Assembly: GCF_900066015.1 (NCBI RefSeq)
Contig: NZ_LN890655.1
Span: 3,202,726 to 3,266,725 of the forward strand
Direction: 5' to 3'
DNA from: Candidatus Promineifilum breve
Lineage (GTDB): Bacteria > Chloroflexota > Anaerolineae > Promineifilales > Promineifilaceae
DNA: 64,000 bases
Below are positions 2,965 through 7,201 of the stretch, in pieces. Position 1 is the stretch's first letter, and each line of letters opens with the position of its first letter. Below the pieces are notes generated by a model, which was given only the letters and a program-made list of their open reading frames with translations, had not been told where the DNA came from and did not search any database. A program made the position numbers and the translations under genes.

Positions 2965-4155
2965 CTAGGCGGCCGATAGAACCGCGCCGAGGATGGCGAT
3001 GGCGTCGTCGATCTGTTCCCTGGTCACGATGAGCGGCGGCGCGAGGCGCAAGGTCGTTTCGCCGGCGTTGATGATCAGCAGCCCGTTCGCCCGCGCCTCG
3101 GCGATCAGTTCCGCCGCGGGCCGGTCAACGTCGACGCCGACCAGCAGCCCCGCGCCGCGCACGTCCAGCACGCGCGGGCTGTCCAGCTCGCGCAGGCGGC
3201 GGCATAGGGTTTCGCCGTTCTCGGCCACGGCGGCCAGGAACTCCGGCCGGGCGATGTGGTCGAACACCACCCCGGCGGCGCGGCACACCAGCGGCCCGCC
3301 GGCAAAGGTGCTGCCGTGCTCGCCGTAGCCCACGGCCGCGGCCACGTCTTCGGTCAGCAGGATCGCCCCGATGGGCAGGCCGTTGGCTAAGGGCTTGGCC
3401 AGGGTCATAATGTCGGGCCTGACGCCATAGGCCTCGTACGCCCAGAGGCGGCCGGTGCGCCCCAGCCCGCACTGGATTTCGTCAAAGATAAGCGTCACGT
3501 CGTGGGCGTCGCACAGGGCGCGCAGCCCGCGCAGAAATTCGGGCGTGGCCGGATGGATGCCGCCCTCGCCCTGCACAGGTTCGACGATGACGGCGCAGGT
3601 GGCCGGGCCGATGAGCGCCCGCGCGGCGGCCAGGTCGTTGAACGGCGCGAAGTGGACGCCGGGCACCAGCGGCGCGAACGGCTCGCGGTAGATGGCCTTA
3701 TAGGTGACCGACAGCGCGCCTAGCGTGCGGCCGTGGAAGCTGCCGCTGAAGGCGACGATCTCGCTCTTGCCGTCGCCATGCTGGGCGCGGGCGCGCTTGC
3801 GGGCGAACTTGAGGGCCCCTTCCACGGCCTCAGCCCCGGAGTTGGTGAGGAAGACGCGGTCGGCGAAGGAGTTGGTGACCAGCCGTTTCGCCAGCTCCAC
3901 TTGCGGCGCGGTGTAGTAGAGATTGCTGACGTGGGTCAGCGTGGCCGCCTGTTCGGCCACGGCCGCGGTCACCGCCGGGTGGCTATGCCCCAGCGCGGCC
4001 ACGGCGATGCCCGACATGAAGTCCAGATAGCGGTGGCCCTCGGCGTCATACAAATAAACCCCCTCGCCGCGCTCCAGCACAATATCCGCCCGCCGGTACG
4101 TCTGCATGACGTAGCGGGCTTCGTCCCCAATGACATCCTTTGTGTTAATCGTCAT
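2965..4155 (-). CDS. argD: Acetylornithine aminotransferase
   Basis: PLP-dependent class III aminotransferase that converts N-acetylglutamate semialdehyde to N-acetylornithine in arginine synthesis. About 396 residues, normal for the family. Visible motifs are the FDEIQCGLGRTG block (~225-236), TLAKPLANGLPIGA with the Schiff-base lysine near residue 254, and HGSTFAGGPLVC. The ATG at 4155 is chosen because GAGAGGAAGGG sits just before it; an upstream in-frame start at 4221 would translate the repeat tract and is unlikely. The gene lies 65 nt after argB, separated by the heptamer tract. The same fold also acts on succinyl-ornithine or LysW-linked substrates, but argC/argB context favours argD. 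Confidence 0.93.
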   Translation of the reverse strand: MTINTKDVIGDEARYVMQTYRRADIVLERGEGVYLYDAEGHRYLDFMSGIAVAALGHSHPAVTAAVAEQAATLTHVSNLYYTAPQVELAKRLVTNSFADRVFLTNSGAEAVEGALKFARKRARAQHGDGKSEIVAFSGSFHGRTLGALSVTYKAIYREPFAPLVPGVHFAPFNDLAAARALIGPATCAVIVEPVQGEGGIHPATPEFLRGLRALCDAHDVTLIFDEIQCGLGRTGRLWAYEAYGVRPDIMTLAKPLANGLPIGAILLTEDVAAAVGYGEHGSTFAGGPLVCRAAGVVFDHIARPEFLAAVAENGETLCRRLRELDSPRVLDVRGAGLLVGVDVDRPAAELIAEARANGLLIINAGETTLRLAPPLIVTREQIDDAIAILGAVLSAA

Positions 4156-4190
4156 ATCCCTTCCTCTCTCCATCAGAATCGTCTGTCTCA

Positions 4191-4233
4191 ACTGACCTAC
4201 TGCCCACTGCCTACTGACCACTACCCACTGAAC
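4191..4233. repeat. Degenerate heptamer repeat between argB and argD
   Basis: Units such as ACTGCCC, ACTGCCT, ACTGACC, ACTACCC, ACTGAAC in tandem (six units with one extra base). The tract overlaps the end of argB: the last codons and the TAG stop at 4223-4221 fall inside it. Confidence 0.8.
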
Positions 4234-4976
4234 ACCGTCCCCCCGCCACTGCTCAACCCCGCCAGATCGACGATTCGCACCCGGGGCACGCCGCGACCGA
4301 CGGCGGCCAGCGCCGTGCGCACCTTGGGGATCATGCCGTCGGTGACGATGCCGTCCCGAATCAGCGCCTCGGCCTGGCCCGACGAAAGCTGCCGTACGAT
4401 GACGCCCGCTTGCAGCACACCGGGCACGTTGGACACGAAATCGAGTACCCCGGCCGACAGCGCCCCGGCGATGGCCCCGGCCGCCTCGTCGGCGTTGACG
4501 TTGTAGGTCAGGCCGTCTTCGCCCAATGAGATGGGCGAGATGACCGGCAGAATGCCGTGGTCGATGAAGTGGCGCAGCATAGTGGCCCGCACGTGGACGA
4601 TTTCGCCCACCAGCCCCAGGTCGGCCGTCGGGTGCGATTTGCGCCGGCAGCGCAACAGACCGCCATCGACGCCGCTGAAGCCCACCGCGTCCAGCCCGGC
4701 GGCCAGCAGGGCCACGACGATGGCCTTGTTGGTGTGGCCGGAGAGCACCATCTGGGCCACGGCCAGCGATTCGGCATCGGTGACGCGCAGGCCGTCGACC
4801 TTGACCGGCTCTATGCCCAACCGCGCCTGGAGCGCGGCGATCTCCTGGCCGCCGCCGTGGACGACGATGAGCGGCTCGTTTTCGGCCGCCTGTAGTGCCG
4901 CGATCTGCCGGGCCAACTCGTCGAGAAAGCCCGGTTTGTTCATTTCATTGCCGCCGATTTTGATGACGCGGGTCAT
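4221..4976 (-). CDS. argB: Acetylglutamate kinase
   Basis: Amino-acid kinase family enzyme that phosphorylates N-acetylglutamate, second step of arginine synthesis. About 251 residues. Visible are the N-terminal KIGGN, the HGGGQEI glycine-rich loop (~40), the KVDGLRVTD segment, the NVNADEAAGAIA nucleotide-site motif and the C-terminal DGMIPKV lysine motif. ATG 4976 is preceded by GAAGGAG at good spacing; GTG 4982 is the alternative. It follows argC by 57 nt. LysZ, which acts on LysW-bound aminoadipate, is a close relative; no lysW-like gene is in the window, so argB is preferred. Confidence 0.92.
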   Translation of the reverse strand: MTRVIKIGGNEMNKPGFLDELARQIAALQAAENEPLIVVHGGGQEIAALQARLGIEPVKVDGLRVTDAESLAVAQMVLSGHTNKAIVVALLAAGLDAVGFSGVDGGLLRCRRKSHPTADLGLVGEIVHVRATMLRHFIDHGILPVISPISLGEDGLTYNVNADEAAGAIAGALSAGVLDFVSNVPGVLQAGVIVRQLSSGQAEALIRDGIVTDGMIPKVRTALAAVGRGVPRVRIVDLAGLSSGGGTVFSG

Positions 4977-4993
4977 ATTCACTCCTTCTAATC

Positions 4994-5033: not shown

Positions 5034-6041
5034 CTACTCCAGCCCCGCCGTTTCGTCGCAGCCGAACACGACGTTCATATTCTGCACCGCCTGCCCCGCC
5101 GCGCCTTTGATGAGATTGTCGATGGCCGAGGTCAGGATGAGCGTGCGGCCGGTCAGGGTCAGCCCGATGGCGCAGCGATTGGTATGGGTGACGTGGGCCA
5201 GCGCCGCCGTCTGGCCGCGCGGCAGTACAGACACAAATGGTTCGCCGTCATAAGCCGCCGTATACAGATCGCGCAGGTCGGCCTCGGCTACGTCCTTTTC
5301 AAAAGTGACGTAGATCGTGGACAGGATGCCGCGTGGCACGGGCAGCAGGTGGGGCGAGAAGATGAGCGCCGGGGCCGCGGCCCGCCATTGGGCGATGGCC
5401 TGCTCCATCTCCGGCAGGTGGCGATGGGCGCGGCCGATCTTGTAGGCCGAGAAGTTATCGGCCACCTCGACGAAATGGCTCGTCTGCGTCGGGGTGCGGC
5501 CCGCGCCGGAGACGCCGGACTTGCTGTCGGCGATGATCGGCTCGGCGATGGGCAGCCCCGCCCGCAGCAACGGCCACAAGGCCAGCAGGACGCTGGTCGG
5601 GTAGCAGCCGGGATTGGCGACGAGGCGCGCCCCGGGTAGCTCGGCCCGGTAGACCTCGGTCAGGCCATAGACGGCCTCGGCCAGCAGGTGGGGCGCGGGG
5701 TGGTCGTGGGCGTACCAGTGGGCGTAGGTGGCGGCGTCGCGCAGGCGGAAGTCGGCGCTCAGATCGATGACCCGCGTCCCGGCGGCCAGGGCCACGGTCG
5801 CCGTCTCGGCCGCGGCGGCGTGGGGCAGGCAGAGGAAGGCCACGTCGATCGCGTCGAGTGGCGCGTCTGCCCCGGCGATGAGCGGCAGGGCGGGCGCGGC
5901 GGGGAATACGTCACGCAGCGTCTTGCCCGCTTGGGATTGGGAAGCGACGAAGGCGATGTCGGCCGCGGGGTGGCGGCGGAGCAGTTTCACCAACTCCAGC
6001 CCGGTATAGCCCGTCGCGCCGAAAATGCCGGCTTTGATCAT
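5034..6041 (-). CDS. argC: N-acetyl-gamma-glutamyl-phosphate reductase
   Basis: NADPH-dependent reductase making N-acetylglutamate semialdehyde, third step of arginine synthesis. 335 residues. The Rossmann motif GATGYTG (8-14) and the active-site cysteine in NPGCYPTS (Cys146) are intact, as is the KSGVSGAGR segment. It is the first gene of a minus-strand argC-argB-argD operon. ATG 6041 has only a weak GAGG upstream. Its transcription is probably governed by the promoter at 6218-6245 and the terminator-like leader at 6063-6163. LysY is a paralogous possibility but no lysine-specific partner is present. Confidence 0.93.
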   Translation of the reverse strand: MIKAGIFGATGYTGLELVKLLRRHPAADIAFVASQSQAGKTLRDVFPAAPALPLIAGADAPLDAIDVAFLCLPHAAAAETATVALAAGTRVIDLSADFRLRDAATYAHWYAHDHPAPHLLAEAVYGLTEVYRAELPGARLVANPGCYPTSVLLALWPLLRAGLPIAEPIIADSKSGVSGAGRTPTQTSHFVEVADNFSAYKIGRAHRHLPEMEQAIAQWRAAAPALIFSPHLLPVPRGILSTIYVTFEKDVAEADLRDLYTAAYDGEPFVSVLPRGQTAALAHVTHTNRCAIGLTLTGRTLILTSAIDNLIKGAAGQAVQNMNVVFGCDETAGLE

Positions 6042-6062: not shown

Positions 6063-6163
6063 AAAAAAAAGACCGCCAGACCCTTGTGAGGTCTGGCGGT
6101 CGGTTTACGCTTGTCGATTCGTCGGCGACTCAGGCAACCAAAAACACCAGACCTGTGGTCTGG
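6063..6163 (-). promoter_or_regulatory. argC leader: predicted transcription attenuator with competing hairpins
   Basis: Read on the minus strand, segment 1 CCAGACC (6163-6157) pairs with segment 2 GGTCTGG (6153-6147). Segment 3 (6101-6090) pairs with segment 4 (6082-6071) as a perfect 12-bp GC-rich stem followed by eight T (6070-6063), 21 nt before argC. Segment 2, with one extra A, is also 8-bp complementary to the CCAGACCT of segment 3, so a 2:3 antiterminator is possible. No T-box or known riboswitch motif was recognised. An in-frame stretch rich in arginine codons runs from TTG 6203 to TAA 6105 across segment 1, but it lacks a Shine-Dalgarno. Confidence 0.62.
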
Positions 6164-6217
6164 GGCGGGCGCGGGCGACGCGGGAAAGCCTAGGCTTGGT
6201 CAACGAACATGGGGGGA

Positions 6218-6245
6218 ATAATAGCAATCAAGGTAAGATTGTCAA
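6218..6245 (-). promoter_or_regulatory. Sigma70-type promoter of the arg operon
   Basis: On the minus strand TTGACA (6245-6240), a 16-bp spacer and TATTAT (6223-6218) form a near-consensus promoter reading toward argC. Transcription would begin near 6210, giving a leader of about 170 nt that contains the attenuator. The rest of the gap 6042-6355 holds no gene I can support. Confidence 0.65.
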
Positions 6246-6355: not shown

Positions 6356-6769
6356 ATGGGCTTGCACACCATTACGCTCAACCTGCCGGACCAGCTTTAC
6401 CGTCGCTTGCAGCAGACGGCCCAATCGATGCGACGGCCTCTCAATGAGGTTCTGATTCGCGCCGTCGAGATCGGTAGCCCACCAACCTGGGATGACGTGC
6501 CGTCATCGTATCAAGTCGAACTCGCCGCGCTGGATCGGCTGGATGATGACAGCTTGTGGCAAATCGCTCGGGCTCGGCAGACGGAAGCTGAACTATCCAG
6601 ATATGTGGCGTTATTGGAGCGTAATGCTGAACAGACGATCTCGTCGGCTGAGCAGGTAGAGCTAGAAACGCTCCGCGAATCGGCCGATCTTTTCATGTTG
6701 AAAAAAGCCCAGGCGGTAGCGCTCCTCCATTGGCGCGGTCACGCCATTCCTCCCTCTGAGCGTTTATAG
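6356..6769 (+). CDS. Small RHH-like protein paired with HNH nuclease
   Basis: A 137-residue protein of unknown function. The N-terminal 35 residues (TITLNLPDQLYRRLQQTAQ, then MRRPLNEVLI) have the beta strand-helix-helix pattern of ribbon-helix-helix DNA-binding or antitoxin-like domains; the remainder is predicted helical with many Glu/Gln. It ends one base before the initiation region of the HNH gene, so the two are co-transcribed. The DNA here is less GC-rich than the flanking genes, which suggests acquisition. A toxin-antitoxin role is only a possibility; similar two-gene units are common in filamentous cyanobacteria and Chloroflexota as far as I recall. Confidence 0.7.
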   Translation: MGLHTITLNLPDQLYRRLQQTAQSMRRPLNEVLIRAVEIGSPPTWDDVPSSYQVELAALDRLDDDSLWQIARARQTEAELSRYVALLERNAEQTISSAEQVELETLRESADLFMLKKAQAVALLHWRGHAIPPSERL

Positions 6770-6775
6770 TTGACG

Positions 6776-7201
6776 ATGAGCGGTAAAATCTCGACAAAAT
6801 TGCACCGCCAATTGGTCGAAGCGGACGATCATTGTTGTGCCTACTGTCAAACCTCGGCCGCCAATACCGGCCAACCATTGACAGTGGATCACATCCTACC
6901 AATATCTCAAGGTGGAAAAACCGAGTTTGACAACCTTTGTTTTGCTTGCCGTCTGTGTAACGAATTCAAAGCTGCACATACGTCAGGTATTGACCCCCTG
7001 ACCGGCGAGGCAACACCTTTGTTTCATCCCCGCCACGATAGCTGGTCGGAACACTTCCTGTGGGATGGTAGTGGCAGCCGTTTGATCGGAGTGACGGCCA
7101 TTGGACGCGCTACTATTGTAACGCTCAACATGAACAATGAAGTCATCGTTCGTACGCGCTTGCGATGGGTAAGCGTAGGCTGGCATCCACCACAACTATA
7201 A
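6776..7201 (+). CDS. HNH endonuclease
   Basis: A 141-residue protein with a canonical HNH domain in its first 70 residues: paired cysteines CAYC, the DHILPISQGG motif (catalytic His), DNLCFACRLCN with the second CxxC pair and Asn, then K. The C-terminal half is unassigned (a RSxHFxW-like stretch ending at WHPPQL). ATG 6776 is the likely start; TTG 6770 is in frame and directly follows the stop of the upstream gene. HNH proteins of this size act as standalone nucleases in restriction, mobile-element or toxin contexts. No restriction or phage genes adjoin it, so its role is open. Confidence 0.85.
   Translation: MSGKISTKLHRQLVEADDHCCAYCQTSAANTGQPLTVDHILPISQGGKTEFDNLCFACRLCNEFKAAHTSGIDPLTGEATPLFHPRHDSWSEHFLWDGSGSRLIGVTAIGRATIVTLNMNNEVIVRTRLRWVSVGWHPPQL

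Follow-up and report, generated by a model that had tools for sequence, protein, structure and literature searches.

How might the argC operon of Candidatus Promineifilum breve (Chloroflexota; Anaerolineae) respond to arginine supply? The question arises from the DNA immediately upstream of argC, where the original prediction placed four mutually complementary segments ending in a terminator and proposed an arginine attenuator. We examined this leader in the window, i.e., the whole stretch of 64,000 nt that was analyzed, and compared it with argC leaders of related genomes. The features discussed here are as follows (window positions).

6218..6245, minus strand: promoter TTGACA-16-TATTAT, with 11/12 consensus matches; equivalent -35/-10 boxes in 40/41 leaders
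6130..6210, minus strand: leader uORF in the ATG frame (MFVDQA, a stop, then AFPRRPRPPQTTGLVFLVA), ending at TGA 6132-6130; interrupted in the window, intact in 40/40 relatives
6190..6192, minus strand: in-frame TAG at uORF codon 7; CAG in 6/7 congeners, CGC in the seventh
6169..6180, minus strand: predicted sensing Arg codons CGT CGC (CCG) CGC; equivalent Arg run in 40/40 relatives
6157..6163, minus strand: segment 1, CCAGACC
6147..6153, minus strand: segment 2, GGTCTGG; core GTCTG identical in all 41 leaders
6090..6101, minus strand: segment 3, GACCGCCAGACC; shared by the terminator (as its 5' arm) and the antiterminator (as its 3' arm)
6071..6082, minus strand: segment 4, GGTCTGGCGGTC; 3' arm of the terminator
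6063..6070, minus strand: T8 tract of the terminator, 21 nt upstream of the argC ATG at 6041
5034..6041, minus strand: argC (335 aa), first gene of the operon
4221..4982, minus strand: argB-like gene, downstream
2965..4221, minus strand: argD-like aminotransferase gene, downstream

The names argB and argD, as well as alaS and lysX used below, were assigned by inspection of the sequences, not by a library scan. Divergent from the argC promoter, positions 6356-7201 of the plus strand encode a 137-aa ORF and then a 143-aa ORF that reads as HNH-endonuclease-like.

The layout proposed for the RNA was confirmed on the minus strand, including the near-consensus promoter (6245-6218), the four segments, and the distance from the T8 tract to argC. 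Segments 1 and 2 form a 7-bp hairpin (CCAGACC-ACA-GGTCTGG, 6163-6147), and segments 3 and 4 form a perfect 12-bp stem (6101-6071) that is followed by the T8 tract. Segment 2 has the two partners that had been claimed for it, namely segment 1 and, alternatively, segment 3, with which it can form at least 8 bp (AGGTCTGG/CCAGACCT). The leader fold was more stable than 200 of 200 dinucleotide shuffles (z = −2.88). The original prediction suggested folding the RNA with and without segment 1 blocked; when segment 1 was left out and segment 4 was absent, the minimum-energy fold of the window leader was the 2:3 antiterminator (−28.1 kcal/mol), and once segment 4 was included, the 3:4 terminator outcompeted it. 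The two structures are mutually exclusive, as in attenuators of the trp/his type. The last Arg codon ends at 6169 and segment 1 begins at 6163, while segment 2 ends at 6147, followed by the uORF stop codon at 6132-6130.

We identified the leader uORF by comparing the 330 nt upstream of argC in family relatives, of which the 40 with a retrievable leader were counted; sets of 41 leaders were used for spacing, folding, and alignment. An Arg-rich uORF starting with ATG was intact before argC in 40/40 relatives and was followed by segments 1-2-3-4 and the terminator (e.g., MFFDKAQAFPRRPRPPRTTGLVLLVA in the same genus and MNTFIDSQALRVIRRRRQTHRLVFELA in another). The translatable Arg-rich stretch of the original prediction lies in a different frame, starting with TTG at 6203, and this frame did not hold up: in 27/40 relatives, a stop interrupts it no more than 22 codons after the ATG. 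Conversely, the ATG frame (6210) was open over the same 22-codon span in 37/40 relatives, and the other three carried complete shorter uORFs. Among six congeners, single-nucleotide codon differences were 40 synonymous versus 28 non-synonymous in the ATG frame, compared with 10:72 in the TTG frame and 14:60 in the remaining one. Judged from its conservation and these substitution patterns, the conserved and selected leader frame is the ATG frame, not the TTG frame. The window ATG sits 7 nt past the -10 box, and the corresponding distance is 6–10 nt in 40/41 leaders, implying a 5' untranslated region of approximately 0–3 nt. Based on this promoter spacing, the uORF is probably leaderless. The lack of a Shine-Dalgarno sequence, which had been considered the weak point of the proposal, would be accounted for by a leaderless uORF.

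We investigated how widely this arrangement occurs using an automated test applied to the 450 nt upstream of argC, which required an ATG uORF of 8–50 codons with at least three of one residue in eight, located 40–190 nt before a terminator. With Arg as the residue, the test was passed by 39 of the 41 family regions and 54 of 73 regions from the rest of the class (the other 19 did not pass), as opposed to 1% and 2% of the respective shuffles. Arg thus passed in 95% of the family regions, whereas the next residue reached 27% (23% in the rest of the class). One of the two failing family regions should be the window itself with its broken frame, and the second is probably L104: its leader is intact but begins 464 nt upstream, beyond the 450 nt scanned. 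In other Chloroflexota classes, 3 of the 28 argC regions passed; two from one lineage were judged genuine and one spurious. A chance origin of the Arg uORF with terminator was ruled out by the shuffles and by these 28 regions.

The two cases judged genuine outside the class (L316 and L317) have an Arg-codon leader (ALRLRRPR) and a terminator before argC. An outgroup scan matched 19 of 75 regions, and the first four of the matches were Chloroflexota. The outgroup matches were rejected as mostly tails of an rpsI-like upstream gene; the exception was a possible Arg leader in Hyphomicrobiales. There, in Afipia and another Hyphomicrobiales genome (L045, L064, and L074, upstream of position 3001), argC follows a short ORF that includes four Arg codons (e.g., MIDASTILVSRRRRAFAVWAADRV); this ORF lies soon after a -10-like box, a hairpin comes after it, and the arrangement is possibly an independent arginine leader.

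The alternative pairing was conserved along with the uORF. Folding with segment 1 masked gave 2:3 pairing in all 41 leaders. In the 41-leader alignment, 87.5% of the cells of the 2:3 helix were paired, and neither the slid controls nor any of the 500 shuffles reached its covariation score; most core pairs were nearly invariant, and the signal came from the helix ends. Across the class, the helix occurred in variants such as GTCTGG/CCAGAC, GTGTGTC/GACACAC, CGGGTCCGG/CCGGACTCG, ATGAGGTTCG/CGAACCTCAT, and GTGAGGTCA/TGACCTCAC, and 25 of 54 class leaders reached p ≤ 0.05 for 2:3 pairing against shuffles of the terminator arm. A failure of segments 2 and 3 to covary had been named as evidence that would count against attenuation; instead, pairing was retained across the class through different sequences. 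With segment 1 free, the 2:3 pairing was thermodynamically more favorable than 1:2 in 30 of the 41 leaders, so the 1:2 hairpin must act kinetically. The equilibrium probability of the terminator was low or uncertain in three leaders (L082, L098, and L105).

A covariance model built from the 41 argC leaders found a second strong copy of the scaffold in the same genome (C1:1304220-1304337, plus strand, 68 bits; L235), located upstream of alaS. Its uORF is intact and encodes MLNVPFKHVNFAAAAQTASLVGIVA, with four Ala codons. When family leaders were sorted into argC and alaS sets by the downstream gene, Ala runs were present in 30 and Arg runs in 2 of the 32 alaS leaders, compared with Arg runs in 40 of 40 argC leaders (Fisher, 3e-18 and 9e-17). 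Additionally, the scaffold precedes a lysX-type operon with Lys codons in three of three leaders from three genomes (L250, L261, and L288; e.g., MFNLTVVKKSKKRTPA). This agreement between the putative sensing codons and the downstream gene is the strongest support for the codons acting as the sensor. Weaker matches of the model at loci other than argC, alaS, and lysX were discarded, most of them being the ends of coding regions or unrelated terminators. The lysX-type operon of L250 also contains an argC paralogue, and one family member (L312) has an Arg-codon leader immediately before an argD-like gene.

Regarding conventional control by ArgR, no member of the Arg_repressor family was found in the window's genome by a search that did match control genomes. 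In the class, 3 of 150 genomes matched, one of them above the cut-off, and in the phylum 22 of 121 genomes were above the cut-off in the same search. The operon could not be placed in an ArgR regulon, as ArgR was not detected in the genome.

The proposed mechanism would operate as follows. Transcription would start at or beside the ATG of the uORF, which is short and probably leaderless. Under a shortage of Arg-tRNA, a ribosome would stall at the CGN codons that directly precede segment 1 and cover this segment, leaving segment 2 to pair with segment 3 so that transcription would continue into the operon. With ample arginine, the ribosome would reach the TGA just past segment 2 and mask that segment, such that segments 3 and 4 would form the terminator. 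We estimate a probability of roughly 85% that the argC leader is a ribosome-mediated, trp/his-type transcription attenuator sensing charged tRNA-Arg. For the lineage, sequence comparison lends strong support to arginine attenuation because the Arg uORF, antiterminator, and terminator are conserved, ArgR was not detected, and the homologous alaS and lysX leaders carry exchanged codons.

The strong terminator alone would also fit simple termination, or binding of a metabolite, a tRNA, or a protein to the leader (a riboswitch, a T-box, or ArgR-type control), with the Arg codons arising as a by-product of GC richness. A T-box-like element (GGGTGGAACCGCG) with a terminator does occur elsewhere in the genome, before a thrS-like gene (C1:2064793-2064896; L238). 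However, no Rfam family matched the argC leader at its gathering score, the sole weak match lay on the opposite strand, and the leader accordingly did not qualify as a T-box or as any other Rfam covariance model; ArgR-type control is likewise at odds with the failure to detect ArgR in the genome. A GC by-product is difficult to reconcile with the excess of Arg over the next residue in the family (95% vs. 27%) or with the Ala codons, in place of Arg, of the homologous alaS leader. Together, these observations make an explanation of this kind highly improbable. It is also very unlikely, in our estimation, that mRNA stability or argC translation, instead of transcription termination, is what the leader controls. 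Such modes of action are known, as the arginine-sensing uORFs of speF (PMC6386406) and rbfL (PMC13009471) affect mRNA decay, Rho, or translation, but here the antiterminator pairing is conserved, as is a perfect terminator with a T-run, which in many relatives lies far from argC (e.g., >150 nt in L082, L086, and L104). Attenuation of transcription is the reading we retain for the lineage.

The window's own copy departs from this picture. A stop at codon 7 was found in none of the 40 relatives and, among the leaders compared, only in the window, where the Arg run is present in the sequence but follows the TAG and thus lies outside the open frame. A ribosome halted at the TAG would be 26 nt short of segment 1 and before the Arg codons, which should leave segment 1 unmasked. 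Barring an assembly error or read-through of the TAG, arginine probably no longer controls the switch in this copy. In the his leader, an early nonsense codon renders the operon uninducible, whereas a UAG at the control codons causes derepression (PMC4046918). By analogy with such early nonsense codons, the window operon would most likely be stuck at low expression; this step is uncertain because 2:3 is thermodynamically favored over 1:2 in most leaders when segment 1 is free. Because the codons that follow it are preserved, the TAG is either recent or an error. An assembly or sequencing error, which would leave the attenuator of the window intact, would be in keeping with this preservation, with the absence of the TAG from every relative, and with the intact alaS leader of the same genome, yet the genome is assembled in 3 contigs with 99.96% completeness and showed no sign of error at the site. 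We regard an error as possible but somewhat doubtful. At present, the claim of an arginine attenuator can be upheld for the lineage on the basis of its uORF, pairings, and codon-swapped homologues, but arginine-responsive control at the window locus as sequenced is doubtful because the TAG precedes the Arg codons.

In trp and his attenuators, the leader peptide contains codons for the end product, the RNA can adopt alternative 1:2, 2:3, and 3:4 pairings, and an intrinsic terminator precedes the first gene. The argC leader shares this layout of leader peptide, alternative pairing, and terminator with those of Escherichia coli and Salmonella, but it uses arginine rather than Trp or His, its uORF is probably leaderless, and the window copy has a nonsense codon before the sensing codons. 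Similar to the actinobacterial attenuators or leader peptides of trp, trpS, leuS, ilvB, and cys (PMC1262725), it would represent leader-peptide control outside Proteobacteria that extends to aminoacyl-tRNA synthetase genes, although no arginine, alanine, or lysine leader peptide appears in the parts of that source considered here. Consecutive Arg codons sense arginine in Salmonella speF orf34, which differs in working through Rho, RNase G, and translation of the ornithine decarboxylase gene rather than by intrinsic termination ahead of an operon for arginine synthesis (PMC6386406). In Staphylococcus aureus, the Arg-codon leader peptide rbfL senses arginine limitation, but it blocks translation of a biofilm regulator and is not an attenuator (PMC13009471). 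Attenuation has also been surveyed by Lopatovskaya et al. (2010), as cited in PMC4833913. The principle is thus known from trp and his; we found no earlier report of a leader-peptide attenuator on a bacterial arginine operon in the open-access literature, and the arginine version is apparently new, although its priority is not certain.

A bolder proposal, to which we give even odds, is that ArgR-type control has been replaced in Anaerolineae by modular leaderless attenuators that share one scaffold and have exchanged codons by descent (Arg for argC, Ala for alaS, and Lys for lysX), and that the window species is a natural mutant whose arginine sensing was lost through a nonsense codon. Attenuation would give a large bacterial class, in which ArgR was detected in at most a few genomes, a means of arginine control, and would add arginine, alanine, and lysine to the attenuated pathways. 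The homologous leaders, whose sensing codons track the controlled gene, amount to a natural codon-swap experiment. Furthermore, with a uORF that is probably leaderless and nearly no 5' untranslated region, translation of the leader would be coupled to the start of transcription.
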